Virus record (IMG/VR): IMGVR_UViG_3300046694_000077
Location: 1-24,331 of that record
Strand: one strand, 5' to 3'
Length of the DNA stretch: 24,331 bases
From: a virus
Part shown: piece by piece, positions 6,334 to 21,216 of the stretch
Position numbering within the stretch: the stretch's first letter is position 1
Layout of the letters: each line of letters starts with the position of its first letter
Notes under the pieces: generated by a model
What the model was told of the DNA's origin: nothing
The model's input: only the letters and a program-made list of their open reading frames with translations
The model's database searches: none
Program-made: the position numbers and the translations under genes

Positions 6334-7116
6334 TTAGAAGTCTTCTTCGCCTGCCGACTTGCCGCCTTCGTTCGAGCCAGCGTCGGACTTGTCCTCGCCG
6401 GTTTCCTCGTCAGCGAACTCGCTCGGGTCGTAGCCGTAGCCCTCCTCTTCACCGAAGCCGTGGCTGTCAGCGGAGCGGGAGCCGTTCGAGACCAGCTCGA
6501 TGACCTGAACACCATTCAACTGCAGCTTGATGCCAGCGGCAGCGGTGCCGGGGATGAAGTAGCCGATGTTGCCGTCCTTGTCGGAGCCGACCGTGAACGA
6601 AATCTTGCCCTCGGAACCGCCCCAGATGTTGGGGAGCTTGCCGACCATCTTCTTGCCGCGAGCGTCGTAGATGTCGGGCGACGATGCCCACTTCTTGCCT
6701 TCGCGCGGACCCTTCTTGAACGTGCCCGAGGCCTTCTTCGTGAACTTGAGGCAGACCTCGCCGGTCTCTTCCTCGGTGTCCTTGTCGTAGAGGGTCTCGA
6801 ACAGCGAGTTCATGACCGGGCCGGTGACGCCCTTCTTCTCGAACTCCTTGCGGGTCTTGACGGCCAGCTCGGAGAACGCCTTCTCGGCATTGCGGCGGGC
6901 TTCCTCGTAGAGGTCGTTGAGGGTGACGCCGTCCTTGTTCTTGCGGGAGGCGAACTCTTCCAGCGCAGCCAGGGACATCTTGCCCTTGACGCTGTACTCG
7001 CCATCCGGCTTCGGGAAGTCCTTGTTGCCGTAGTCGGGCTCGGTCACCTTCGGGTAGACGAAGACGACGCGGGGGGTGGTGAAAGAGGGAGCAGATTTCT
7101 TCTTGTCAGATGCCAT
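6334..7116 (-). CDS. 2.5: T7-like single-stranded DNA-binding protein (gp2.5)
   Basis: 260 aa, slightly longer than T7 gp2.5 (232 aa). It opens with a Lys/Ser-rich stretch followed by SAPSFTTPRVVFVYPKVTEP and KDFPKPDGEYSVKGKM, the pattern of gp2.5-type OB-fold proteins. The last 50 residues are highly acidic (Glu, Asp, Gly, Ser) and end GEEDF; the acidic tail with terminal Phe is how T7 gp2.5 contacts DNA polymerase and helicase. The position immediately before gp3 is the T7 order. A T7-like promoter element lies directly upstream (7119-7141), which would give this abundant protein its own transcript. Confidence 0.9.
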   Translation of the reverse strand: MASDKKKSAPSFTTPRVVFVYPKVTEPDYGNKDFPKPDGEYSVKGKMSLAALEEFASRKNKDGVTLNDLYEEARRNAEKAFSELAVKTRKEFEKKGVTGPVMNSLFETLYDKDTEEETGEVCLKFTKKASGTFKKGPREGKKWASSPDIYDARGKKMVGKLPNIWGGSEGKISFTVGSDKDGNIGYFIPGTAAAGIKLQLNGVQVIELVSNGSRSADSHGFGEEEGYGYDPSEFADEETGEDKSDAGSNEGGKSAGEEDF

Positions 7117-7118
7117 AT

Positions 7119-7141
7119 GCGTATTAGGTCCTTTTGCGGAG
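7119..7141 (-). promoter_or_regulatory. candidate phage RNA polymerase promoter before SSB
   Basis: On the minus strand it reads CTCCGCAAAAGGACCTAATA, ending a few bases before the SSB start. It shares CTCCGC, the GGA and the downstream TA with the other members of the family (8733-8763, 9521-9551, 17400-17430, 18224-18254, 18630-18651). The third G of GGG is lost here and the hairpin is poor, so this is a weaker member. Confidence 0.5.
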
Positions 7142-7145
7142 ATGT

Positions 7146-7271
7146 TTAGACGGAGTATTTGCGTTCGAGTGCTTCAACGTCGAAGCCCTGGGCGGTCAGC
7201 TTGAGGTAGAGGTCGACCGGCAGCGGCTGACCGCGCTTCCAGTGGAACTTGGCGAGGGTCAGGTAGTTCAC
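7146..7271 (-). CDS. 41-residue protein
   Basis: GTG start sharing GTGA with the stop of the 121-aa gene upstream. The product reads VNYLTLAKFHWKRGQPLPVD and continues LYLKLTAQGFDVEALERKYS, a compact helical protein without membrane span. Not recognised. A phage promoter element follows immediately after its stop. Confidence 0.55.
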   Translation of the reverse strand: MNYLTLAKFHWKRGQPLPVDLYLKLTAQGFDVEALERKYSV

Positions 7272-7633
7272 GCTGTGACCTCGTGCTTCAGGACCAGCTC
7301 GACAGCCTCGGGGAACTTGTCGATGATCTTCTCGACCGTGGCGTTGATGCCGAGGCCGAAGCGGACGTACTGGGTCAGCACATCGTGGATGTCCGACTTG
7401 TTGACGGTGACCGAGCGGACCTGACCGAAGGGGGTAGCCTTGGTCTCGGACTGCTTCGAGTTGACCACGAAGTTCCCTTCGAGGCGGCTGGTCACGAGGC
7501 GACCACTGTCATTCAGGCGGCGGAAGAACTGACCGTTGGAGGTCACTTCAATGACCGTGTAGTCGTTGTAGAGGGTGCGGCCAGGGCCGGACTTGATGCA
7601 ACGGACGGTGTCGCCAGCTTTGAGCTTGCTCAT
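7268..7633 (-). CDS. hypothetical protein with KOW/SH3-like N-terminus
   Basis: 121 aa. The N-terminus (KLKAGDTVRCIKSGPGRTLY then DYTVIEVTSNGQFFRRLNDSG) has the G-D-x-V ... Y-x-V spacing of small SH3-like beta barrels. The C-terminal 40 residues are helical. No catalytic motif. ATG overlaps the upstream stop (ATGA), and its own stop overlaps the next GTG, so it is embedded in a coupled run. Confidence 0.7.
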   Translation of the reverse strand: MSKLKAGDTVRCIKSGPGRTLYNDYTVIEVTSNGQFFRRLNDSGRLVTSRLEGNFVVNSKQSETKATPFGQVRSVTVNKSDIHDVLTQYVRFGLGINATVEKIIDKFPEAVELVLKHEVTA

Positions 7634-7896
7634 TTCAGTTCGCCTTTCATGTATGCGTCGATGCCACGGAACTCGGCGCGCTTGCCGTCGTCCCCGTTGA
7701 TCAGGTTCTTGGTGACCGTGAAGGCTTCCTGAGCAGGAATGCCGAGGTGGTCTGCGAGGGTGAGGAAGACTGTGGCTGCGCCCATGATCTGTATCTCGGG
7801 GCGGAAGTCCTGCAGTCGGTCGAGGACAGTCATGGACGCCATGGCGACGTCGCGGGGTGTGGCCGTGTTCAACACGTCCCGGTTAAGCTTGGGCAT
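7630..7896 (-). CDS. 88-residue helical hypothetical protein
   Basis: Begins MPKLNRDVLNTATPRDVAMA; all-helical in appearance, with a centre reading MGAATVFLTLADHLGIPAQE and a tail FRGIDAYMKGELK. Pattern resembles small cytosolic proteins found beside replication genes in phages of alphaproteobacteria, but I cannot name the family. Overlaps the tiny upstream gene by 14 bases and the next gene by ATGA. Confidence 0.65.
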   Translation of the reverse strand: MPKLNRDVLNTATPRDVAMASMTVLDRLQDFRPEIQIMGAATVFLTLADHLGIPAQEAFTVTKNLINGDDGKRAEFRGIDAYMKGELK

Positions 7897-8040: not shown

Positions 8041-8144
8041 GAGAAGAACCACCAGATGGCTACGATGACGCCCGCGTCGATGGCCAAGAGGTTGACCAGC
8101 AGGGCAATGATCAGGGCGACAGCGAAGTCGTGACCTTTGCTCAT
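8037..8144 (-). CDS. 35-residue membrane peptide
   Basis: Starts MSKGHDFAVALIIALLVNLL and continues AIDAGVIVAIWWFFS: a basic N-terminus, one or two short hydrophobic segments and an aromatic C-terminus. ATG overlaps the stop of the 114-aa gene (ATGA); its stop overlaps the 22-residue peptide gene. Not recognised. Confidence 0.55.
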   Translation of the reverse strand: MSKGHDFAVALIIALLVNLLAIDAGVIVAIWWFFS

Positions 8145-8485
8145 GCGAGGGCCTCGCGGATGTGATCCTTGATGCGGCCCTCTTCACCCCAAGAACCCTT
8201 GAGGCGGCGCAGGATGGCTTCGCGGGTGACCGCTTCGGGCTCCCACTGGTCTTCCAGGCCGTAGCAGGAGCAGTGGCTCCCGTGGACCTCGAACAGGTGA
8301 CCGTTCTTCTCGAACAGCACGTAGGCCGAGCCGCTGTAGTCCTCGTAGGTGTAGGAGGCGACCAGCACCTCGACGCCCTCAAGGGCAGCATCGTCGATCT
8401 GGAAGTCAGCCTTCAGGCCGGTGAGACCGGAGCCCTTGTAGTTGCCGCCACCTTCGGACCAATCGTGGAGGAACAAAGCCGTCAA
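8141..8485 (-). CDS. phage hypothetical protein with HGSHCSCYG motif
   Basis: 114 aa. The central motif EVHGSHCSCYGLEDQWEPEA is one I associate with a widespread, uncharacterised phage protein type; His and the two Cys could bind a metal. An acidic-aromatic stretch (YTYEDYSGSAYVLFEKNG) precedes it and a helical end follows. Overlaps the upstream gene by 4 bases. Function unknown. Confidence 0.75.
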   Translation of the reverse strand: MTALFLHDWSEGGGNYKGSGLTGLKADFQIDDAALEGVEVLVASYTYEDYSGSAYVLFEKNGHLFEVHGSHCSCYGLEDQWEPEAVTREAILRRLKGSWGEEGRIKDHIREALA

Positions 8486-8685
8486 GCTGCAGCCCTCCGG
8501 TTGCGGAAGGTGGCCTTGCGCTGTTCCTTCTTGCCGAAGTAGCCGTTCTCCTTCAGGCCCTCGATCAGGCTCTTGCGAACCTCGTATCGATCGGTCTTGG
8601 AGGCGGCAGCGAGGTCGATGCTGACGTTGCCCACAGTGATGTCCTGATGGGCAGCACCCATGCGGATCGTGATGTTCTGCTTCAT
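8482..8685 (-). CDS. 67-residue basic protein
   Basis: N-terminal beta-like segment MKQNITIRMGAAHQDITVGN, then a helix and a strongly basic end (GKKEQRKATFRNRRAAA), which suggests nucleic-acid contact. The ATG is preceded by AAGGATTTCAC, a good ribosome site. It is the first gene after the RNA polymerase and lies just downstream of the promoter/hairpin element at 8733-8763, so it likely opens a class II transcript. Confidence 0.65.
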   Translation of the reverse strand: MKQNITIRMGAAHQDITVGNVSIDLAAASKTDRYEVRKSLIEGLKENGYFGKKEQRKATFRNRRAAA

Positions 8686-8732
8686 GTGAAATCCTTCGAT
8701 GAATGTTTCGTAGGGCTAGTGGAAGCCTTAGT

Positions 8733-8763
8733 CTCCGCTTCAGGAATAAATCCCTTAGCGGAG
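8733..8763 (-). promoter_or_regulatory. phage promoter element with 31-base hairpin, after RNA polymerase
   Basis: Minus-strand sequence begins CTCCGCTAAGGGATTTATTC and ends AAGCGGAG. The promoter-like part, GAACGCCTCCGCTAAGGGA, resembles the T7 promoter core (ACGACTCACTATAGGGA) with GGG as the likely start. The whole 31 bases fold: 7 outer pairs (CTCCGCT/AGCGGAG), two mismatches, 4 inner pairs and a 5-base loop TTTAT. Geometry is identical at 9521-9551 and 18224-18254. It begins 4 bases after the RNA polymerase stop. Confidence 0.65.
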
Positions 8764-8767
8764 GCGT

Positions 8768-11242
8768 TCAGGCAAAGAAGAAGTCGGACTTGAGGACTTG
8801 GTTGAGGTCGAGGTCTCCTTTGGAGGGCAGGGGTTCCAGCTCGATGCCGGGATTAGTCTGGACGATCTCGTCACGTAGAGCGGTGAGAGGGTCGCCTTGG
8901 TACATTCGGACGAAGACCGACCGAAGGGTGGCAGCCAGCAGGCTGGTGTTGCAGGCGTGGGTGCCGTAGCTGTCGTGGATCATTGCAAAGCTGGTGATGC
9001 CCTGCTCGGCCAGTTCGTCGACCGTCAGGAACAGCGCAGCAGCGTCCATGGAGTGAACGAAGTTCGGGCTGATCGACGTGGCCTGCTTGCCGGCGTTGAT
9101 CTTGTCCGTCTCTTCATAGATGCGAGGCTGCACCAAGGTTCCCGAGATGCGCGTCTTGATCTGCCGGCTGGAGAAGTCGACGTATCTCTGGTAGGCCACG
9201 AAGCCGCATGGCGTCGTCCAGTGGACCGGAAGGTTCTCCTTGCCCATCGTCCTGGCCGTCTTCTGCAGCCACCCCATGGCTTCCCTTGCCGCGATGACCA
9301 CGTCACCGATGCTGTCCCACACTAGGCTGGACAGGAACCCGATGGCCTTCTTCAGATCGTCGCCCAGGTTGTGCTTGTAGCCGCTGGCGATCTTGGCCTT
9401 CACAGCCTCGTCGACATACTTCAGGCATGACCGTGGCGTCCCGCCGTAGGGCAGCACCATGACTGGCCGCTTGGTGATCTTTCGGTCGATCCCCATGGTG
9501 AGCCATTCGTATGCCCATCGCTCCCGTTCAGGATCAGTTCCCTTACCGGAGGCAATTAGACGCAGTTGTTCCATGACGCGGTCAGCGACCACCTGATAGA
9601 TGTCCTGCGGCTTGGCTGCCGGGATTAGGTTCACCGCCCGCCCGCCGACGCTGTCGAGGAGCATGGCCGAGAAGTGCTGCAGCCCGTTGCAGGAGCCGTC
9701 GAGGGCGATGGGGATGTGCGAGATGAAGTCAGCGCCGTAGCCACCGTCGACCCAGTCCCGGTACTCGAAGCAGAACGCGAGGAAGCACCAGGGCTTGTCA
9801 GCCTCTGTCCACCAGAGATTGCCAATAGGGTCGCTGGCGCAGCGGATGATCTGTCGCCAGTTATCCTCGACCCATTTGACGCGCTCGTCGAACGACACCT
9901 TGTCGACGCCGAACGTGTTCGCACCGTGGATCATAAGCCAGCGCGCACCGTCCACCCCGAGAGGCTTCCCCTCAGCGAACCGCAGCAGCGCCTTGACCGG
10001 ATCACTGCCCTGCGGGTGCAGGACCAGAGGGACCGGATAGGCTCGACCACGGAAGTCGAGGTTGTGGGGGAAGTAGATGGCCCGCTCGTCCTTGAACCGC
10101 TCAGCGAGGCCCAGCATGGTCCCCTGATGGAGCCGGTCCTGACGGAGCTGGAGGTTCTCGGTGTAGACGTCTCGGGCTGCCCACTTCCATTCACGCAGGG
10201 CCACCTCGTTGGTGTCGATGTCGTGGGGACGGACAGGCATGGGCTTGTCACCGGGCACGAGGCCGGCGATGCCTTCGTTCGCCCTGGACAACTCGGTCAT
10301 CACGTCGAGGATGGGCCGGTTGATCTGCCACGGGGTCGCCTGGATGGCGTTGAGGCCGCGCAGGAGGACCGACCTGTGCTGAGCCCTGGCAAGGTTCTGC
10401 TTCAGCAGCTCGAACTGCTTCTTGTTGGCCCTGCGGACGAGCTGAAGAGGTCTGTCGAGTGCGCTGTAGTAGCCGCCGCCGCTCAGCCCTGACCATTCCT
10501 TCGGCGGGATCAGCGTCGGGAGGTAGTCAGGGAACAGATGCTCGCCGCCCCTGACGGACTGGTCGATCCACGCCATGGCGCGCTCGGTCAGGTGGACGAG
10601 GTATTGGTCCTTCGGGGCGTTCTTGTCGCCACCCTCATGCGCCTGCTGGATCATGGCCAGCCCGGTGTACTCGCAGAAGACCTCGACCAGCTTGATCCCG
10701 AGGTGGATCATGTCGGTGCGGCTCCACCGATCCCATGCGATGTCGTTCTTGCCCATCGCGAAGGTCAGGACCGTGGCCTTGTGCTGCTCGGTTGCGCCGG
10801 CATCGGACAGCTTGCGCAACTCGTAGTCGAACTTGTCCTTGTTCTGGTTGCGGAACTCGGTGAACCGGGCTTCCAGCTCCACGGCGCGGGCGACCGTCAC
10901 TGCGAGCGTCAGCAGCACCGGGGCGCGGGGCTTCATCATGCGACCAAGGATGGCCCTGCAGGACAGGTAGGCGACGACCCGAGGGTCCATGTCCTTGATC
11001 AGCCTGAAGGCCACCGCGCGGGTCCTGGGGTTGCCGGCCATGATGTCGTCGACATAGGCCTTGATGCCGCCCGAGACCGGCTCGATGACGCTCTCAAGAA
11101 TGCACCGCCCGGTGTCAGTCTCGTAGCCGCGCTCCTTGTCGACGTTCTTGCGGACCCGAGAGAGATATCGATCCCGCCCGAGGCCAGACATCTCGATCTC
11201 CAGCTCGATCTGCCGCTGGAGTAGGTGGTCGTGATGCGTCAT
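8768..11242 (-). CDS. 1: T7-like single-subunit RNA polymerase (gp1)
   Basis: Transcribes the middle and late phage genes from phage-specific promoters. Residue numbers here count from the ATG at 11248 (826 aa); the start chosen is two codons later at 11242, because AAGGA lies 7 bases before it but directly abuts the first ATG. Motif A: PIALDGSCNGLQHFS with catalytic D517 (T7 D537). Motif B: ITKRPVMVLPYGG with K593 and Y601 (T7 K631, Y639). Motif C: MIHDSYGTH with D759 (T7 D812). The C-terminus KSDFFFA matches the T7-type FAFA end. Slightly shorter than T7 (883 aa). Early region and int lie upstream, so integration at attP would detach it from early promoters. It contains an internal promoter/hairpin element at 9521-9551. 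Confidence 0.97.
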   Translation of the reverse strand: MTHHDHLLQRQIELEIEMSGLGRDRYLSRVRKNVDKERGYETDTGRCILESVIEPVSGGIKAYVDDIMAGNPRTRAVAFRLIKDMDPRVVAYLSCRAILGRMMKPRAPVLLTLAVTVARAVELEARFTEFRNQNKDKFDYELRKLSDAGATEQHKATVLTFAMGKNDIAWDRWSRTDMIHLGIKLVEVFCEYTGLAMIQQAHEGGDKNAPKDQYLVHLTERAMAWIDQSVRGGEHLFPDYLPTLIPPKEWSGLSGGGYYSALDRPLQLVRRANKKQFELLKQNLARAQHRSVLLRGLNAIQATPWQINRPILDVMTELSRANEGIAGLVPGDKPMPVRPHDIDTNEVALREWKWAARDVYTENLQLRQDRLHQGTMLGLAERFKDERAIYFPHNLDFRGRAYPVPLVLHPQGSDPVKALLRFAEGKPLGVDGARWLMIHGANTFGVDKVSFDERVKWVEDNWRQIIRCASDPIGNLWWTEADKPWCFLAFCFEYRDWVDGGYGADFISHIPIALDGSCNGLQHFSAMLLDSVGGRAVNLIPAAKPQDIYQVVADRVMEQLRLIASGKGTDPERERWAYEWLTMGIDRKITKRPVMVLPYGGTPRSCLKYVDEAVKAKIASGYKHNLGDDLKKAIGFLSSLVWDSIGDVVIAAREAMGWLQKTARTMGKENLPVHWTTPCGFVAYQRYVDFSSRQIKTRISGTLVQPRIYEETDKINAGKQATSISPNFVHSMDAAALFLTVDELAEQGITSFAMIHDSYGTHACNTSLLAATLRSVFVRMYQGDPLTALRDEIVQTNPGIELEPLPSKGDLDLNQVLKSDFFFA
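9521..9551 (-). promoter_or_regulatory. promoter/hairpin element inside the RNA polymerase gene
   Basis: Minus strand begins CTCCGGTAAGGGAACTGATC and ends CGGGAG. It has the same 31-base layout as 8733-8763: outer pairs CTCC/GGAG plus GT/AC around one mismatch, two central mismatches, inner GGGA/TCCT pairs and a 5-base loop. The AAGGGA start region and CTC spacing are kept even though it lies within codons of the polymerase. It would drive transcription of the polymerase end and the class II genes. Confidence 0.6.
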
Positions 11243-11393
11243 GCTCATTCCTTATCGCTTGGGCGAGACTACGTGCAGCGTTCCCCGCCCTGGGCGAGTT
11301 GCACATGATCTCGAAGAAGACGTGCTTGGTGTCGGCGTAGCTCCAGCCGGCTGCTGCCGCGAAGACGTGGATGCCGTCTCGGTTCTCAGCCAT
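11115..11393 (-). CDS. small protein overlapping the RNA polymerase start
   Basis: 92 aa if read to the only stop in frame. The first 50 residues (MAENRDGIHVFAAAAGWSYA, then DTKHVFFEIMCNSPRAGNAA) look like a real helical protein; the last 45, overlapping RNA polymerase by 128 bases, are Arg/Pro/Gly-rich as out-of-frame sequence of a GC-rich gene would be. The ATG shares a base with the upstream stop (TGATG), supporting translation. Function unknown. Confidence 0.5.
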   Translation of the reverse strand: MAENRDGIHVFAAAAGWSYADTKHVFFEIMCNSPRAGNAARSLAQAIRNEHDASRPPTPAADRAGDRDVWPRAGSISLSGPQERRQGARLRD

Positions 11394-11968
11394 CAGGCAG
11401 CCATCCCGAGGTCCGGGTATTTCGCCTTCATCTCTGCTTTCCACGCTCGGTCGCGCTCCTCACGCCACTTTGCGACGAACTCCTCAGCCTCTGGCCAGCT
11501 ACAGGTCGGGTATTCCCCAGTGATCTCTTTGTAGGTTGACTGGACGTAGTTCATCCTGGCTCGCATCGGCATTCCGACACCGCCCTTGGCCTTGGCTTCG
11601 GAGGTGGTGATCCACCCCCTGCGCCACCACATTTCAAGACGTGCGGAGTAGTCGAAGTCGGGAGCGTCAGGAAGCTCTGACCAGCGCACCCTGAAGTCTT
11701 TGCCACTCCTCAGGTGGGCAGCGTAGAGACCAACCATGTCGGCTGCGGAGGCGCGCACAGCTAGGAGTGACCCGGCGCGGCGGGCGTCGACCTTGGGGAA
11801 GTGGTGAACCTCAACGCTCGCTGCGGGGAGATTGTCACGAAGCCATTTTGCTGTGCCGGGTTTCAACCCACCGTCTGGTGAGCGGAGATGTTTCGAGATG
11901 TCGATGATCGCCATCCAAACCACACCTTCCGATTGGACGCACCGGGGCCACAGATCACTCTTGTTCAC
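11393..11968 (-). CDS. hypothetical protein between attP and RNA polymerase
   Basis: 191 aa from GTG at 11968, which has AGGAG about nine bases upstream; a later ATG at 11914 is an alternative. Contains IIDISKHLRSPDGGLKPGTA, a basic/Trp-rich middle (RLEMWWRRGWITTSEAKAKG) and a charged helical C-terminus (EFVAKWREERDRAWKAEMKA). No catalytic motif or membrane span recognised. It is the first gene after attP in the direction of RNA polymerase, so in a lysogen it would be the phage gene next to the host junction. Its position invites a role in controlling polymerase expression, but the sequence does not show one. Confidence 0.7.
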   Translation of the reverse strand: MNKSDLWPRCVQSEGVVWMAIIDISKHLRSPDGGLKPGTAKWLRDNLPAASVEVHHFPKVDARRAGSLLAVRASAADMVGLYAAHLRSGKDFRVRWSELPDAPDFDYSARLEMWWRRGWITTSEAKAKGGVGMPMRARMNYVQSTYKEITGEYPTCSWPEAEEFVAKWREERDRAWKAEMKAKYPDLGMAA

Positions 11969-11982
11969 GGGCTGTTCTCCTG

Positions 11983-12027
11983 TTTGTCACTTTGTCACAA
12001 ATTTTTGTCACACGACCACATTGTCAC
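11983..12027 (+). repeat. TTTGTCAC repeats, RNA-polymerase-side arm of attP
   Basis: Direct octamers TTTGTCAC at 11983-11990, 11991-11998 and 12004-12011, and ATTGTCAC at 12020-12027, all on the plus strand. Matching copies lie on the other side of the tRNA. The arrangement is that of integrase arm-type binding sites flanking a core. Confidence 0.65.
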
Positions 12028-12036
12028 CGCATCTAC

Positions 12037-12057
12037 CTCCGCGAAGGGAGATATTGG
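12037..12057 (+). promoter_or_regulatory. phage promoter-like element pointing toward integrase (antisense)
   Basis: Plus strand CTCCGCGAAGGGAGATATTG. CTC-to-GGG spacing is the same as in the minus-strand promoter family, and GGGAGA is the T7 initial sequence. Transcription would run antisense to the tRNA, int and the regulator genes. Confidence 0.5.
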
Positions 12058-12112
12058 TGAAACCCGGAAATCCTTAGGGATCATAGGGGTTTAGGTGGTT
12101 TTGGGGGAGTAG

Positions 12113-12132
12113 CTCCGGTGGGGGAGATAGGG
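12113..12132 (+). promoter_or_regulatory. second plus-strand promoter-like element
   Basis: Plus strand CTCCGGTGGGGGAGATAGGG. Shares CTCCG, exact CTC-to-GGG spacing and GGGAGATA with the element at 12037, but lacks the AA before GGG. Its first 9 bases are also one arm of the inverted repeat 12113-12163. Weaker than the first copy. Confidence 0.35.
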
Positions 12133-12163
12133 TGGATCACAACCTAAATCTGTTCCACCGGAG
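12113..12163. repeat. 9-base inverted repeat next to the tRNA 3' end
   Basis: CTCCGGTGG at 12113-12121 and CCACCGGAG at 12155-12163, loop 33 bases. It begins 5 bases beyond the CCA end of tRNA-Leu. It may form a stem that ends or processes the tRNA transcript before it reaches the RNA polymerase side, or be a protein-binding site at attP. No T-run follows on the minus strand. Confidence 0.5.
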
Positions 12164-12167
12164 CGGG

Positions 12168-12253
12168 TGGTGCGGGCAGAGGGACTCGAACCCCCAAGCT
12201 TTTCAAGCACTTGGACCTAAACCAAGCGTGTCTACCAATTCCACCATGCCCGC
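12168..12253 (-). tRNA. tRNA-Leu (anticodon UAG), complete, with encoded CCA
   Basis: 86 bases including CCA. Acceptor stem GCGGGCA pairs with TGCCCGC, discriminator A, then CCA encoded. Anticodon stem CTTGG/CCAAG encloses loop TTTAGGT, so the anticodon is UAG and codons CUA/CUN are read. There is a class II variable arm, and the T-arm loop is TTCGAGT. Most phage att cores hold only a tRNA 3' part, so a full gene is unusual. It lies directly downstream of int on the same strand and could be processed from the int transcript. It may act as attP core, as a translational supplement, or both. Confidence 0.93.
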
Positions 12254-12257
12254 AGGA

Positions 12258-12295
12258 ATTGTCACTTTGTCACCGTTTGTCACACGGTTTGTCAC
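12258..12295 (+). repeat. TTTGTCAC repeats, integrase-side arm of attP
   Basis: ATTGTCAC at 12258-12265 and TTTGTCAC at 12266-12273, 12276-12283 and 12288-12295, all plus strand. Starts 4 bases from the tRNA 5' end; the last copy covers the integrase stop codon. Same motif and orientation as 11983-12027. Confidence 0.65.
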
Positions 12296-13386
12296 ACGTC
12301 AACGTCTTCCCCGCCGACAACCTTGAGGGCCGGCTTGGCGGTCTCCAACATGCCGCCGAGGATGTCAGCGCACATGTCCAGATCGCCGGTCCCGAGCTTG
12401 GCGTAGATCAGGGTCGTCTCGATGCGCTTGTGCCCGAGCCACGTCTGGACGCGCTTCAGGTCGACACCGTTCTGGACCATCCAGCTCGCACAGGTATGCC
12501 GCAGGGTGTGGACCACGACGTCGTCGAAGCCGGTGACCTGTTGCATCTTGTCCCACATGGTGCGGAGGTGCCGCGCCTTGCCGGTGGTCTCGCTCTTGAA
12601 GTGGCTGAACGGTCCCTTGCTGTCGGGGTTCAGGGTCTTCATCGTGAGGACCGCTTCCTTGGCAGCCTTCGACAGCGGCAGGGTGCGCGCCGGGGACTTC
12701 TTGTCGCCGCCCCAGAAGAGGACGGTGTTGAAGCCGGGGCCGAACACGTTCCACTTCAGATCGAGGATGGCGCTGAGCCGCGCCCCGGTGTGGAGGGCGA
12801 AGACCGTGAAGGCGTGTATCTCAGGCTGGTGCCAGTCGCGCCACAGCTTCAGGATCGTCTGCGCCTCTTCCCTCGTGAGGAACCGGAGGCGTTCGTTGGT
12901 CTCTCCCGACATGGGCACCTTAGGCGTCCTGGGGATCACACCCTTCTCGTGGGCGAAGCGGAGCATCTTGGACAGCGCGGCCAGCTTGCGATCAGCCGTG
13001 GCGTAGGTGCGGCCCGAGGCGACGATAGCCCGAGCGAACCGGCGCATCTCGTCGGTGTCGATCTCGATGACCAGCTTGTTGCGACCGAAGAACTCGACGC
13101 ATTCCCGGCCCGAGGCGACCGCCGTGTCGGGAGCCTTGATCTTGGGGTTGTTCTCCCAATGCTGCTCTTTGGTGTAGTCGAAGAGGGGACCGAGGGTTGC
13201 CAGCGATGCGCCGCTCTCACTGCGCCCCGTCTTGGCAGCCGGCAGCGGAGACCCACGGACCAGTGCGGCCCGCGTCTCCAACTCCCAGGCTTCGGCCTCG
13301 GGCTCGGTGTCGAAGGTCTCGCGGTAGCGGGTGCCTGCGATCATGAAGTCGGCCATGAAGGATGTGCCGCGATTACGAACTGCCAT
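12292..13386 (-). CDS. int: tyrosine site-specific integrase
   Basis: Catalyses recombination between attP and a host attB, probably a tRNA-Leu gene. 364 aa. C-terminal catalytic domain: R203 in HTGARLSAILDL, H293-x2-R296 in HTLRHTCASW, H319 in WLGHKRIETT and the nucleophile Y328 in LIYAKL. The N-terminal region carries an AP2/arm-binding-like start and a SAM-like core-binding domain (about 65-160). The ATG lies 2 bases after the MarR-like gene stop, with GGAG upstream, so the two are co-translated. attP with arm repeats follows its stop. Two plus-strand promoter-like elements downstream would transcribe antisense to it. Confidence 0.96.
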   Translation of the reverse strand: MAVRNRGTSFMADFMIAGTRYRETFDTEPEAEAWELETRAALVRGSPLPAAKTGRSESGASLATLGPLFDYTKEQHWENNPKIKAPDTAVASGRECVEFFGRNKLVIEIDTDEMRRFARAIVASGRTYATADRKLAALSKMLRFAHEKGVIPRTPKVPMSGETNERLRFLTREEAQTILKLWRDWHQPEIHAFTVFALHTGARLSAILDLKWNVFGPGFNTVLFWGGDKKSPARTLPLSKAAKEAVLTMKTLNPDSKGPFSHFKSETTGKARHLRTMWDKMQQVTGFDDVVVHTLRHTCASWMVQNGVDLKRVQTWLGHKRIETTLIYAKLGTGDLDMCADILGGMLETAKPALKVVGGEDVDV

Positions 13387-13388
13387 TG

Positions 13389-13769
13389 TCAGCTCCCTAG
13401 GAGTTGGATGAGGGTGTTGTAGACCCGGAGGCCGCGCTGCGTCGGCTTGACGCGCTTGAAGCGGCGATCCAGAGGGTCCTCGTAGGTCTCGATCAGACCA
13501 TGGCCGGGGACCAACTCGGCCTTGCCCTTGACCAACAGCTTGCGCTGCTCACTGAGGGCTTCGATGTTTCGAGAGATCGGCCCACCGTCACCGAGGCCGG
13601 CGCGCTGAGCGTATTCCTTGATGGTCAGCTCAGGCTGCGCGACGATGTGCAGGAATAGGCTGATCTGTTGGGCCTGCATTTCGGCGTTCAGCTTCCTGAA
13701 CTCGTCGACGAAGGCGATGAATTTGCGAGCCGTCTTGTTCTCGACCCCACGCGAGACAGTGGCGTTCAT
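13389..13769 (-). CDS. MarR-like winged-helix regulator upstream of int
   Basis: 126 aa DNA-binding protein. HTH region ISLFLHIVAQPELTIKEYAQ then RAGLGDGGPISRNIEALSEQ; the wing/after-wing part GLIETYEDPLDRRFKRVKPT followed by QRG is the MarR-family D-x-DRR...L-T-x-x-G signature. Ribosome site GGAAGGG 7-8 bases before ATG. It is directly coupled to int (2-base gap), so control of int, excision or the lysogeny decision is likely. It could serve as an excisionase-like accessory factor; ordinary transcription repression is the default reading. Confidence 0.8.
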   Translation of the reverse strand: MNATVSRGVENKTARKFIAFVDEFRKLNAEMQAQQISLFLHIVAQPELTIKEYAQRAGLGDGGPISRNIEALSEQRKLLVKGKAELVPGHGLIETYEDPLDRRFKRVKPTQRGLRVYNTLIQLLGS

Positions 13770-15472: not shown

Positions 15473-15687
15473 GCCTCGATCCTCCAGGCATCGATCCGCT
15501 TGGCGCGGTTGCGGACCTCGACCTTGCCCTGCCGGCCAGCAAAGACGCGGGCGACGGTGATGCAGGCCTTGCGGGTGCGATGGAAGCCGAGGAGCGTTGA
15601 GGCCCCGGTGGTATGGGACACCCTAAGCGCCCACTTGTTGCCCCGTTCGGTGTACTCGTCGAGGCGCTGGCAGATGTAGGTGGTCAT
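15469..15687 (-). CDS. 72-residue basic hypothetical protein
   Basis: MTTYICQRLDEYTERGNKWA ... RNRAKRIDAWRIEA. Arg-rich, mixed alpha/beta, no membrane span; possibly nucleic-acid binding. The ATG overlaps the upstream stop (ATGA). A longer open frame upstream is Arg/Gly-rich and overlaps the 100-aa gene, so the short start is preferred. Confidence 0.6.
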   Translation of the reverse strand: MTTYICQRLDEYTERGNKWALRVSHTTGASTLLGFHRTRKACITVARVFAGRQGKVEVRNRAKRIDAWRIEA

Positions 15688-17433: not shown

Positions 17434-18195
17434 TTAGCCGATGACGAAGCCCGAAGTGTCTTTCTTGGCCGGTCCCTTAGCGAAGAGCCCGACGATCACA
17501 CCCATCGGGTCAGTGAAGCGCATGTCGGTTTCGTCGCCGTCGATCACGTCGCGGCCCATGAAGGACATTGACGGGTTGGCGACCTTGTCATCGCGCAGCG
17601 CCTTGCTGCGATAGACCACGGCGACGTTGATCCCGGTCTTGGCGGCAGTATCAAGAACCGCTTCGGCATAGAACGGGCTGGCCGCGCTATAGGACAGGGT
17701 CAGCGAGTAGTTGGCCGGCAGCGACCGATAGGCCCGCTTGTAAATCTTGGTGTAATCGTAGAAGCGCACCTCAGGGAAGGCCTCAAAGATTGACCCGAAG
17801 CGCTCGCCGTCGCGGTAGCAAGGGTGCGCCACTTCCCATTGAATGTCGCTTGTGCCGTTCAACCGCACGGCAGGCTTGACACCCTTGCGCTGGCAGTAGC
17901 GAACGAAGGCGGCGACGTCTTTGACCAGATCGGCCATGAACACGGCGCGGTCCCTGAAATACCGTTGCGTCTTGGCTATGCGAGCCTCGACAATTGAAGA
18001 GAACATGCCGGCGCGGCCAGCCTTTGAGAGGCAACCCATCTCGCACCCTGCAGTGATTGCCATCGGGCAGACGTTGCCGAGTAGCGATTGGGCAGCCGGC
18101 GCAAGGTACATGATGGCCGTTTCGTAGTTGCCCAGCTTGTCACCCTTGACCGTCTTAGCGTTGCCGCCAGAGCGAATGGTTTTGGACTTGAACAT
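17434..18195 (-). CDS. GP88-like early protein
   Basis: 253 aa. The pattern KTVKGDKLGNYETAIMYLAP, C43-x7-C51-x3-C55-L, VRLNGTSDIQWE, EVRFYDYTK, VIDGDETDMRF and DPMGVIVGLFAKGPAKKD is that of a widely distributed phage/plasmid protein that I know as the gene-product-88 family of mycobacteriophages; family name from memory. The three cysteines near the N-terminus could bind a metal. Biochemical function is unknown; the conserved N-G-T-S-D-I-W and DGDETD strings suggest an enzyme-like fold. It is the first sizeable gene of the early region, between two promoter/hairpin elements. Confidence 0.75.
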   Translation of the reverse strand: MFKSKTIRSGGNAKTVKGDKLGNYETAIMYLAPAAQSLLGNVCPMAITAGCEMGCLSKAGRAGMFSSIVEARIAKTQRYFRDRAVFMADLVKDVAAFVRYCQRKGVKPAVRLNGTSDIQWEVAHPCYRDGERFGSIFEAFPEVRFYDYTKIYKRAYRSLPANYSLTLSYSAASPFYAEAVLDTAAKTGINVAVVYRSKALRDDKVANPSMSFMGRDVIDGDETDMRFTDPMGVIVGLFAKGPAKKDTSGFVIG

Positions 18196-18223
18196 GGTCG
18201 TTATCCCTAGTGTGAGCTTGTCG

Positions 18224-18254
18224 ATACCCTAACGGACTAGTTCCCTTAGAGTAT
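18224..18254 (-). promoter_or_regulatory. promoter/hairpin element before the GP88-like gene
   Basis: Minus strand begins ATACTCTAAGGGAACTAGTC and ends TTAGGGTAT. Same 31-base geometry as 8733-8763 and 9521-9551: nine outer pairs (ATACTCTAA with TTAGGGTAT, one G-T), one mismatch, GGA/TCC inner pairs and a 5-base loop. The outer stem differs in sequence from CTCC/GGAG but both sides changed together. It lacks the CCTCC part of the promoter consensus, so here the structure is better kept than the promoter sequence. Confidence 0.6.
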
Positions 18255-18516
18255 TGATAAGATCAAACTTATCGCGCTGCCCGGTTCACCTTTCGGCTTG
18301 CCACTGCGTTAGTTGCGGTCCACCTAGTTCTTCAGCTTTCGCTCTAGGCTCTTGTCTCGCAACCATCCCGGTTAAGCGCGCCTTCCGTTTCGATGGGTCG
18401 GCCTTTGTTTCCGCTGTAAGGTCGAAGGCCCGGAGGCCTTGCCGTGCGCCGAGGGTTTGTCCCCGGCCCCGTCCGTTTCGCCGTGGCGTCTCGTTCGGTG
18501 ACCAATATGTCTCATA
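18255..18516. other. leader region without a convincing gene
   Basis: Only small minus-strand frames are present. One runs 18515-18372 (47 codons, Arg/His/Gly-rich, no ribosome site) and is followed 7 bases later by a 26-codon frame. Neither has convincing composition. The stretch may be an untranslated leader of the GP88-like gene or hold a very small early gene. Confidence 0.4.
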
Positions 18517-18540
18517 TCCGGATTAGATACGCAAGCGGAG
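18517..18540 (-). promoter_or_regulatory. weak promoter-family member
   Basis: Minus strand CTCCGCTTGCGTATCTAATC. CTCCGCT, the A/T pattern and TCC downstream match the element at 8733-8763, but AAGGGA is replaced. Flanks include ATATC/GGATAT, which can pair across the element. Confidence 0.35.
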
Positions 18541-18546
18541 ATATTG

Positions 18547-18584
18547 AAAAAAACGACAGATAGGGTGCATTTTCATGCTAACCC
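18547..18584 (-). terminator. terminator-like hairpin and T-run
   Basis: Minus strand GGGT-TA-GCAT-GAAA-ATGC-ACCC folds into a stem with a GAAA tetraloop, followed nine bases later by TTTTTTT (18553-18547). The gap to the T-run is longer than usual and the stem is only 8 pairs. It lies in an AT-rich island (18540-18620) unlike the rest of the genome. It could instead be part of an early promoter region. Confidence 0.35.
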
Positions 18585-18629
18585 CATGATTTCATTACGA
18601 AAGAAAATTCAAAGAAATCGCTTGGATTG

Positions 18630-18651
18630 CCTGTTAGGTCCCTTTTGGGAG
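18630..18651 (-). promoter_or_regulatory. candidate phage promoter after the first early gene
   Basis: Minus strand CTCCCAAAAGGGACCTAACA, immediately after the stop of the 50-aa gene. CTCC, AAGGGA and CCTAA match the copy before SSB (CTCCGCAAAAGGACCTAATA). TCCC/GGGA can pair with a 4-base loop. Confidence 0.5.
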
Positions 18652-18652
18652 C

Positions 18653-18805
18653 CTATTGCGGCCCTTTGGCGATCACCAAGACCACGCCTAGGACCATGAA
18701 GGCCAGGCACCACGCGCCGACCTTGTCGCCAACGTGCCAGCGTTGCCACCCTGCCAGCGCCAGCGCACCGCCAACGCCACCCGAGACCACATCAACCCAA
18801 TCCAT
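18653..18805 (-). CDS. 50-residue membrane protein, first early gene
   Basis: MDWVDVVSGGVGGALALAGW, then QRWHVGDKVGAWCLAFMVLG and a final VVLVIAKGPQ. Two hydrophobic segments, about residues 6-20 and 32-46, around a basic/polar turn. The ATG has AGGGGAAAGCG upstream, a good ribosome site. It is the first gene after the repeat-rich terminal region, the place where T7 carries anti-host functions such as 0.3; that analogy is positional only. Confidence 0.6.
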   Translation of the reverse strand: MDWVDVVSGGVGGALALAGWQRWHVGDKVGAWCLAFMVLGVVLVIAKGPQ

Positions 18806-19503
18806 CGCTTTCCCCTAGCTGGAAACCATGCGGGCACCTATACGCGCGGAGCTAGAGACCACGCAACGGGTCACCTAGGGTTAGGCCTGAAGGGTGTCGC
18901 CGGGTCATTTTGTGACAGATTGGCAAAACCACCGATTGGCGGACAAGCGCCAAGACATAGCGCACCCTTGCCGCCACCCTGCAGCGCACCCTAGGCACCC
19001 TTGCGAGCCCCATTGGCGCACCCTAGGCGGCATGGATCGGATAACGTATCTAGTCCTAAGCCTTGTGCCATAAGGGTTTGCGCTAGGGCTGTGACAAATG
19101 GCGTGACAAGAGGCCCATTCGCGCGCGGTCTTAGTCGCGCATCGTGCGTCCCACGCGGGCGCGGTATGATGAGGGGGTACGGGGGGTCGGCGCGCGTGCC
19201 CCTTATCCGATCACCCGCTCGCATTTTTGTACCAAATATTCCGACCCTCCCTCAGGATCACCCCAGGTACACCCTAAGGCAGTCCAATGGGTTCCCCTGA
19301 AGGAAGGTGGTCTATGTGTCTCCTGACTACCCTGGTCCCCCCAAGGCACCCCTCGGCTGCACCACAGGGAGAACTGCTGGGGCTGCTGAGGGATGCTCTC
19401 AGGTGTCACCCTAGGGGGCTGCCTAGGGGATCACATCAGGTGTCACCTTAAGGGGAACCATCGGGGGTAGTGCTAGTGGAAGCCTTTGTGGGTCTGAGGG
19501 GGT
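18806..19503. other. gene-free, repeat-rich region between late and early genes (probable genome-end region)
   Basis: No credible gene in about 700 bases. Short related repeats recur: CACCTAGGG (near 18872), GCACCCTTGC, GCACCCTAGGC twice (near 18987 and 19018), TCCTAAGCC, CGCTAGGGC, ACACCCTAAGGC, TCACCCTAGGGG, GCCTAGGGGA and TCACCTTAAGGGG. T7 carries arrays of the heptamer CCTAAAG beside its terminal repeat, which this resembles. The location between terminase and the first early gene is where the linear T7 genome ends. Frames on the minus strand here (for example 18991-19224 and 19203-19409) have repeat-driven composition and no ribosome sites. Confidence 0.55.
19399..19447. repeat. direct repeat of a palindromic 12-mer
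   Basis: TCAGGTGTCACC at 19399-19410 and 19436-19447, start-to-start 37 bases. Each contains GGTGTCACC, a palindrome with a central T, and each is followed by CTAGGGG or TTAAGGGG. Could be sites for a protein acting at the genome ends (terminase) or for a regulator. Confidence 0.45.
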
Positions 19504-21216
19504 CTAGAGGGCGAACCGAGGGGGCGACCGTAGGGAGCCACCGAGGGCCGTCTCCATGAACTTAGCCAGTTCGGCGTCGAGCAGCTCCTGCTTCCTCACC
19601 TCCACAGCCACGGTCGTGTTCCTGGCCATCCATTCCAGCCAGTAGGCGACACAGCCGGCAACAGCATCGAGCCTGTCGTCATGAGCCAGGGCACCCCGGT
19701 TCTTGGTGATCCGGGTCATCTGGTAGAACAGGCGGTACTTGTTCACCTCGTCGGTGGGGAGGTCAGCGGTGCTGTCGTAGTCCCACTCGATGACCTTGGG
19801 ATCGACCACCAGCCTGTGCTGGTTCATGATCGGCTCCAGGGTGTCGATGATGCGGGCTTCCTTCTGGGCCTTCGACCACTCAGCGTCCTCGATCAGGACC
19901 GGGTAGCGGAGCTGGGCTCGGGCACGGAGGAGCTGGGCGAACATGCCGTCGCCGTAGTTGGGCTCGACCTTGATGACGTTGACGCCCTGTTCCTTGGCGC
20001 AGTCGAGGATTTTGTCCAAGACCTTGTCGTCATAGCCGTGGCCTCGGGCACCACCGACAGCGGTCAGGTAGAGGATGCCGTTGAGCATCTTGACCACAGC
20101 CCAGGCGGTCTCGTCCTTGCCGCGTCCCGAGGGATCGACGAACATGGCGGTGCCGTCGTAGTCGATGAAGTCCTTATCGGTGAAGATCGGGCGATGCAGC
20201 CGGTCGCCTGGGAGGCCAACCATGGGCAGCTTCTCGATCACCTGTTCGGGACCGGAGCCCCACACGACCTCTCTCGGGGCCTTGCGAGGGTTCAACCCCA
20301 TGATGATCAGATCGGACAGCTTCAGGGGAAACCTGTCTTCGTCCGAGAGGCTGGTGTCGAGGTAGAACTGAAGGGCGAAGCCTGAGCGCCCATAGGACAT
20401 CTCACGCTCGTTCAAGTCGATCTCGGTGAACCGCGCAGGATCGGTAGAGCCGCCCACGAGGTCAGGCGTCTGATCCAGCAGATGGGCGATCATTGGGGCC
20501 AGCTTGGAGCCATACTTGGCGCGGCGTTCCTCGTCGGGATAGCGAGCCGGCCAGATGCGGCAGACGTAGCCACGGTCAGGCAGGAGGTTGTAGATCGACT
20601 GCTCGGTCTGCGGGGTGCCGAGGTAGATGATGCGACCACCCGGCGACAGCACGGCGTCGAACTCCTTGATCTGTTCGGAGAGCTTCTCGCGCTTGAGGTG
20701 GGTGTCTGAATTGTTCGGGACTTCGATGTCGTCCGCGATGATCACGTCGGCGCGGGAGCCGGCGATCTGCGAGGTGATGCCCAGGGACTTCACAGACGGG
20801 CTGTGGGACGCACGGGCAGGGCCGACGTCAAAGGCTACCTTGGACTGGCGCTGGTCTGCTGTGGGCCTCAGGTGGGCCAGCAATTCCATCTCAAAGATGA
20901 GGCGCATGGTGAAGGTCGAGAAGTCGTCCGAGCGCTGCTTGGAGGCCGAGATGACGAGGACCTTGGTCTGCGGATTGCAGTAGAGCAGCCAGCACACGAA
21001 GGCCGAGGTGACCCAGGATTTGCCGACGCCACGGAAGGCTTCGATGATGAGGCGCTTCGGGCCGTGCTGTAGGAAGGATGCGATGTCGTACTGGACCTTC
21101 GTCGGGTCCGGTAGGGCGAGATGTTTCCAGACCACGTACAGGAAATTGCGGAAGTCGCGGAGAGGGTCTGACTGCGACGACAACGAGGTCGAGGCAGATA
21201 GCGTCTGCTTGGTCAT
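19504..21216 (-). CDS. 19: T7-like terminase large subunit (gp19)
   Basis: DNA-packaging ATPase and nuclease, 570 aa (T7 gp19 586 aa). VVWKHLALPDPTKVQYDIA at the N-terminus, Walker A AFRGVGKS (60-67), Walker B VIIADD (158-163), the coupling region IIYLGTPQTEQSIYN and nuclease motif FVDPSGRGKDET with D361 are all near-identical in pattern to T7, including the FYQMTRITKNRGALAHDDRL block. Ribosome site AAAGGATTAA before ATG. Last late gene; downstream lies the repeat-rich end region. Confidence 0.97.
   Translation of the reverse strand: MTKQTLSASTSLSSQSDPLRDFRNFLYVVWKHLALPDPTKVQYDIASFLQHGPKRLIIEAFRGVGKSWVTSAFVCWLLYCNPQTKVLVISASKQRSDDFSTFTMRLIFEMELLAHLRPTADQRQSKVAFDVGPARASHSPSVKSLGITSQIAGSRADVIIADDIEVPNNSDTHLKREKLSEQIKEFDAVLSPGGRIIYLGTPQTEQSIYNLLPDRGYVCRIWPARYPDEERRAKYGSKLAPMIAHLLDQTPDLVGGSTDPARFTEIDLNEREMSYGRSGFALQFYLDTSLSDEDRFPLKLSDLIIMGLNPRKAPREVVWGSGPEQVIEKLPMVGLPGDRLHRPIFTDKDFIDYDGTAMFVDPSGRGKDETAWAVVKMLNGILYLTAVGGARGHGYDDKVLDKILDCAKEQGVNVIKVEPNYGDGMFAQLLRARAQLRYPVLIEDAEWSKAQKEARIIDTLEPIMNQHRLVVDPKVIEWDYDSTADLPTDEVNKYRLFYQMTRITKNRGALAHDDRLDAVAGCVAYWLEWMARNTTVAVEVRKQELLDAELAKFMETALGGSLRSPPRFAL

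Follow-up and report, generated by a model that had tools for sequence, protein, structure and literature searches.

The attachment region and its surroundings

The window, by which we mean the whole 24,331-bp stretch of DNA analysed (virus record IMGVR_UViG_3300046694_000077), comes from a T7-like phage. Pfam and PHROG matches identify a single-subunit RNA polymerase, a T7-type helicase-primase, a family A DNA polymerase, a T7-type single-strand binding protein and a T7-type terminase, together with a tyrosine integrase. On the minus strand the regulator comes first, followed by int, the P arm, the tRNA-Leu, the core, the P' arm, an ORF of 191 aa and the RNA polymerase. The integrase (12292..13386, minus strand, 364 aa) matches Pfam Phage_integrase at 1.2e-20 and the PHROG integrase family at 2.1e-50. 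Directly upstream of int is a winged-helix regulator (13389..13769, minus strand), recognized by a weak Pfam HTH_27 match under the cut-off, in the slot that corresponds to the MarR-like position of related temperate T7-like phages. The T7-like RNA polymerase (8768..11248, minus strand; Pfam RNA_pol 8.1e-113) is located beyond the P' arm. The nearest isolate is Mesorhizobium phage vB_MloP_Lo5R7ANS, with identities of 73% for the integrase, 79% for the RNA polymerase and 94% for the regulator, and the clade uniting the window with Lo5R7ANS-like phages has a support of 100/100 in the integrase tree. With its RNA polymerase adjoining int and this close sequence kinship, the window phage belongs to the Lo5R7ANS-like T7-like phages (Autographiviridae). 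Both flanks of the attachment region are cargo slots. The 191-aa ORF of the window (11393-11968), without a Pfam or PHROG match, occupies one. In Lo5R7ANS (L005; slots at 6585-7780 and 8133-9402) the contents differ: restriction and methylase genes separate int from the P arm, and the P' arm is followed by two ORFs for RtcB-like ligases.

Eight octamers with the consensus WTTGTCAC, that is (T/A)TTGTCAC, are found around the tRNA, all on the plus strand and in one orientation. Four make up the P' arm (11983..12027, plus strand), at 11983-11990, 11991-11998, 12004-12011 and 12020-12027, and are putative arm-type integrase sites. The other four make up the P arm (12258..12295, plus strand), at 12258-12265, 12266-12273, 12276-12283 and 12288-12295, the last overlapping the int stop codon because the int ORF spans 12292-13386 on the minus strand. 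This array of four same-direction octamers per side, the outermost over the int stop, had been described in the first-pass annotation and is present as described. Within 11970-12310 the heptamer TTGTCAC occurs 8 times, whereas 2000 shuffles gave 0.067 on average and never more than 2; across the whole window WTTGTCAC gives 10 matches where 0.93 are expected from shuffles (largest 4). The region is, as proposed earlier, an attP with arm-type repeats that belongs to a tyrosine integrase.

A complete tRNA-Leu(UAG) gene with an encoded CCA end (12168..12253, minus strand) separates the P arm from the core, a feature of the first-pass annotation that was called by both ARAGORN (anticodon TAG) and Infernal (55 bits, cut-off 29). 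The tRNA is about 97% identical in the related contig L003 and in Lo5R7ANS (97.7% between the window and L003), far above its surroundings. Comparison of the window and L003 sequences shows a compensatory change in the acceptor stem, where a C-G pair is replaced by U-A. No sigma-70-type promoter for the tRNA was detected, and a promoter and terminator scan of 11700-12700 was empty.

A short core missed in the first reading, CAGATTTAGGTT, is located at 12141..12152 (minus strand). It is found 17 nt past the CCA of the phage tRNA, outside the tRNA gene. The sequence shared between the window and the attB of Sinorhizobium (S.) meliloti is exactly these 12 bp, found in the anticodon region of the host tRNA-Leu(UAG) gene; the host target named by the first-pass annotation is borne out. 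The target pattern RGATTTAGGTTCY has a single occurrence in the 3.7-Mb record of S. meliloti Ak57. The midpoint of the arm octamers is the 12-bp core and not the tRNA, the offsets in the window being -145, -133, -123 and -115 on the P side and +123, +139, +152 and +160 on the P' side. These offsets are identical in L003 and L004, and in Lo5R7ANS they are the same except for one mutated site. More distant contigs (L153 and L154, integrases about 31-32% identical) have P' offsets of +123, +138, +152 and +160. Arm geometry is held while the spacer between the CCA and the core is only 35-53% identical between the window and its relatives.

The phage tRNA is 80% identical to the S. meliloti tRNA-Leu(UAG) gene. 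Its anticodon arm reads CTTGG-TTTAGGT-CCAAG, whereas that of the host reads CCAGA-TTTAGGT-TCTGG; because the stem differs, the phage tRNA lacks the core and is not itself a target. The first-pass annotation had suggested that the tRNA may be both core and cargo. The second half of that suggestion stands and the first does not, since CAGATTTAGGTT lies outside the tRNA gene and is absent from the phage tRNA, which is, to judge from its sequence, cargo and not core.

An inverted repeat surrounds the core (12112..12164, minus strand; arms at 12112-12121 and 12155-12164, from RNA folding). Compared with shuffles the fold has a z of -5.0 in the window, -4.8 in L003 (3109-3176) and -2.4 in Lo5R7ANS, and across three relatives it is kept although the stem sequence changes. 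The register of the left arm is shifted by 3 nt between the window and the others. The two arms would be parted by integration. The repeat could be an RNA element behind the int-tRNA transcript or a DNA feature of attP.

At 18195-21216 the terminase stands upstream of the early genes, and the contig is continuous over the attP and also over the usual termini of a T7-like gene order, which gives it the look of a circular or concatemeric molecule, not an integrated one. That the window is a prophage integrated at this site was considered and ruled out, with both arms and an unbroken core present as in an attP.

Integration junctions of related phages

An attL was found in L002, an IMG/VR contig whose integrase is 80% identical to that of the window. 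It contains a P arm, a complete tRNA-Leu and GATTTAGGTTCCAGTGCCGAAAGG followed by CATCCGCACCA, after which the sequence is unrelated to the phage and apparently of host origin. The tail after the break is a host tRNA-Leu 3' half that starts in the anticodon loop, and the break point is therefore the downstream GATTTAGGTT and not a site in the phage tRNA. The same string is found in the window at 12141-12150 (minus strand).

Pattern searches for a host 5' half joined to a core and a P' arm were used to obtain attR candidates. A loose version of the core and arm pattern gave mostly matches with fewer than three arm motifs, and its matches were kept only if caught again by stricter patterns. Junctions with the host tRNA 5' half, the core and the P' arm were found in L063, L127 and L094, whose adjoining RNA polymerases are 54-59% identical to that of the window. 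In L063 the 90 bp up to the core match the unoccupied tRNA-Leu(UAG) site of S. meliloti Ak57 without a difference. ARAGORN called no tRNA at the host 5' half of any of these three junctions.

When the two halves of the window attachment site were joined by script to the S. meliloti site, the attL held one tRNA, that of the phage, and the attR held none. There is no tRNA half beside the window core, and the simulated junctions rebuild no host tRNA. By the 12-bp match and the simulated junctions, with real junctions coming from relatives, attB lies in a host tRNA gene and the core is too short to rebuild that gene. The expectation of the first-pass annotation that integration could leave two full tRNA copies was not borne out: the observed (L002, L063, L127, L094) and simulated junctions split the host tRNA, and only the phage copy is scored as a tRNA. 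Its proposal to map the crossover by aligning attL and attR could be carried through with the junctions of relatives, which break at the 12-bp core; no lysogen of the window phage itself was found among hosts reached through IMG/VR proviruses and two megabase 'plasmid' records. An integrase-alignment scan of genome contigs returned only two distant desulfobacterial matches. Judged by these junctions, integration would split the host tRNA and leave one working copy, that of the phage.

Related phages and published systems

At least five phage tRNA-Leu(UAG) bodies are present in related phages. The body differs again in L153, L155, L154, G006:58430 and the Paadamviruses vTRX32-1, RHEph01 and RHEph21, and some of these tRNAs (in the Paadamviruses, in L154) point the opposite way to the core or are located on the far side of int. 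All of these divergent tRNAs have the anticodon UAG and none contains GATTTAGGTT. One 78,980-bp record (IMGVR_UViG_3300046665_000193; G006, with L035, L153, L154 and L174) contains two different T7-like phages in tandem, with cores at 15652 and 59812, 44,160 bp apart, and three tRNA-Leu(UAG) genes, one of them inverted; the arrangement suggests prophages arrayed in tandem at a single attachment site. In two integrase-bearing records (L014 at 10380; L022 at 2414, IMGVR 3300038701) a host tRNA-Leu(UAG) 5' half gives way to foreign sequence immediately behind GATTTAGGTTCC; neither record yielded a tRNA.

A version with another anticodon was found in Shinella sp. PSBB067, where a related integrase is encoded on record NZ_CP069303.1 (4.6 Mb, 51 tRNAs; filed as a plasmid in PLSDB). 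This integrase sits in an 8.83-kb T7-like prophage remnant (L185, 1003-9842) that splits a host tRNA-Leu(UAA), and the remnant ends, read by eye, join into a complete tRNA-Leu(UAA) sequence. The string ACTTAAAATC occurs three times in the record, at the two junctions and in the phage tRNA. Among the long tRNAs, the remaining Leu tRNAs of the replicon have the anticodons CAA, UAG, CAG and GAG, and the sole tRNA-Leu(UAA) found there is therefore that of the phage. It has been kept though most of the phage is lost, the survivors including RNA polymerase, MarR-like regulator, integrase and SPFH genes.

Phages LUZ100, HTVC119P and Pasto also have a tRNA-Leu(UAA) near int. Like the window, these three and the Shinella remnant have related integrases, single-subunit RNA polymerases, a complete tRNA-Leu near the integration module and a short anticodon-loop match; they differ in the anticodon UAA and in the position and orientation of the tRNA, and junctions were seen for Shinella only. 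In LUZ100 (L183) and HTVC119P (L182) AACAGACTTAAAA strings are located between int and the RNA polymerase, and the tRNA-Leu(UAA) is just upstream of int. From their sequence these strings are likely the cores of the same strategy. We considered as a general rule that the phage tRNA always avoids the core. It holds in the UAG group and fails in Shinella and HTVC119P (UAA): core avoidance is not universal because the phage tRNAs of these two contain a short GACTTAAAATC match.

The strategy itself has been published. Ford et al. 2021 (PMC8631192), in the portion of the text available, report the same 12-bp core in vTRX32-1 and relatives with a phage tRNA-Leu that lacks it, and propose that this tRNA replaces the host gene and prevents super-integration. 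vTRX32-1 and RHEph01 (Paadamvirus, Rhizobium tRNA-Leu) resemble the window in this core, in being T7-like, in their complete core-less tRNA-Leu(UAG) and in the interrupted host tRNA. However, their tRNA is upstream of int and inverted, its body and the arm spacing are different, and the integrases share no more than 32-33% identity. According to the accessible part of Vladimirova et al. 2024 (PMC11476347), in which no core or arm map was found, S. meliloti AK21 and RU11/001 contain Lo5R7ANS-like prophages that inactivate tRNA-Leu(UAG)026 and bring their own tRNA-Leu(UAG). These prophages share with the window the target gene and the replacement tRNA-Leu(UAG), and Lo5R7ANS itself has the same arm and core layout. 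Guerrero-Bustamante and Hatfull 2024 (PMC10865867), as far as that text was available, named tRNA-dependent lysogeny and tested it in mycobacteriophages. The actinobacteriophages Fionnbharth and Gaia likewise have a tyrosine integrase, a host tRNA that is not rebuilt and a cognate phage tRNA, with a core of about 8-17 bp; the phages and hosts are unrelated to ours, the target tRNAs are mostly others, and the need for the tRNA was shown there by deletion (PMC10865867, same portion). In the available portions of the literature on this strategy no complementation test for a T7-like phage was found. With the strategy published for Paadamvirus rhizobiophages, Lo5R7ANS-like prophages and mycobacteriophages, the window is a further example and not a new strategy. 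The arm map, the tandem array, the swapping of tRNA bodies and the Shinella remnant were not found in the accessible parts of PMC8631192, PMC11476347 and PMC10865867, and what this analysis adds is the arm map, the at least five tRNA-Leu(UAG) bodies, the tRNA-Leu(UAA) version and the decayed Shinella prophage.

Probable replacement of the host tRNA, and alternatives

Taken together, the region is very probably the attP of a temperate T7-like phage (Autographiviridae, related to Lo5R7ANS) that uses tRNA-dependent lysogeny. We infer that the window phage itself would integrate as its relatives do. The integrase would bind the TTTGTCAC arm sites on both sides of the core, and the core CAGATTTAGGTT would recombine with the same sequence in the anticodon-loop region of the host tRNA-Leu(UAG) gene. 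The host gene would be cut, its 5' half coming to lie beside the P' arm and its 3' half beside the phage tRNA, with neither half functional. The intact tRNA-Leu(UAG) that the phage carries between its P arm and the core would then take over; its isotype and anticodon are those of the broken gene. The phage tRNA is presumably expressed and functional in the lysogen and is probably necessary there, as the Shinella replicon suggests, on which the only tRNA-Leu(UAA) found is the phage's.

A complete tRNA lying between the arms could also mean that the whole tRNA gene is the common core and that two complete tRNA-Leu copies flank the prophage, but this reading is barely credible. The arms are centred on the downstream 12-mer, the phage tRNA, without the shared core, has only 80% identity to its S. 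meliloti counterpart, and the tRNAs of the Paadamviruses and L154 point the opposite way to the core or are placed on the far side of int. For the relatives it is refuted by junctions that break at the core and split the host gene. It is also very improbable that a phage-borne tRNA half rebuilds the host gene at one junction in the canonical manner, the complete tRNA being left over from imprecise excision. Such canonical relatives do exist. Marine T7-like contigs (L136, L146, L051, L067, L071, L097, L158, L159) share this core, have similar GTGACAA arms and place a tRNA-Leu 5' half beside the core, so arranged that the host gene would be rebuilt, and in G015 (L162), which rebuilds its tRNA, the 3' half is duplicated and an intact tRNA is kept at one end. 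An excision remnant was moreover suggested by the LUZ100 authors for their tRNA-Leu (PMC10134795). However, the window has no tRNA half on either side of its core and its simulated junctions rebuild nothing, the L063, L127 and L094 junctions show no rebuilt host tRNA, conservation of the phage tRNA greatly exceeds that of its surroundings, and in several phages the tRNA body differs from the target gene. For LUZ100 too, replacement would fit better than an excision remnant. The four marine rows cluster together in the integrase tree (100/100), separate from the rows labelled as having a replacement tRNA; the deep branches are long and weakly supported, and there may have been one origin or several.

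The tRNA could instead serve lytic growth, through codon supply or resistance to a tRNA-cleaving defence, its place beside attP being incidental. Phage tRNAs can counter tRNA-degrading defence, as discussed in the part of PMC10865867 available, and the RtcB-like ligase ORFs of Lo5R7ANS adjoin the same site. A role of this kind as the whole explanation is most unlikely given that isotype and anticodon fit the broken gene (UAG core with UAG tRNA; UAA core with UAA tRNA in Shinella) across at least five tRNA-Leu(UAG) bodies, and that the tRNA survives in the 8.8-kb Shinella remnant.

Replacement of the host tRNA is the reading that we retain, and it leads to a broader proposal for which we consider the balance even: that temperate T7-like phages act as carriers by which host tRNAs are replaced with foreign ones. 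A host tRNA-Leu (UAG or UAA) present in single copy would be split and a foreign body with the same anticodon supplied, with bodies swapped several times among these phages, and after decay of the prophage the phage tRNA would stay as the sole gene of that kind in the cell, as exemplified by the 8.8-kb Shinella remnant. The window provides a cleanly dissected attP for a strategy that is expected to make the phage tRNA essential. Further phages of this kind can be sought by a complete tRNA near int together with a 10-12 bp anticodon-loop core between arm repeats. The findings suggest that tRNA-Leu genes beside the integrases of temperate T7-like phages may be working replacements.
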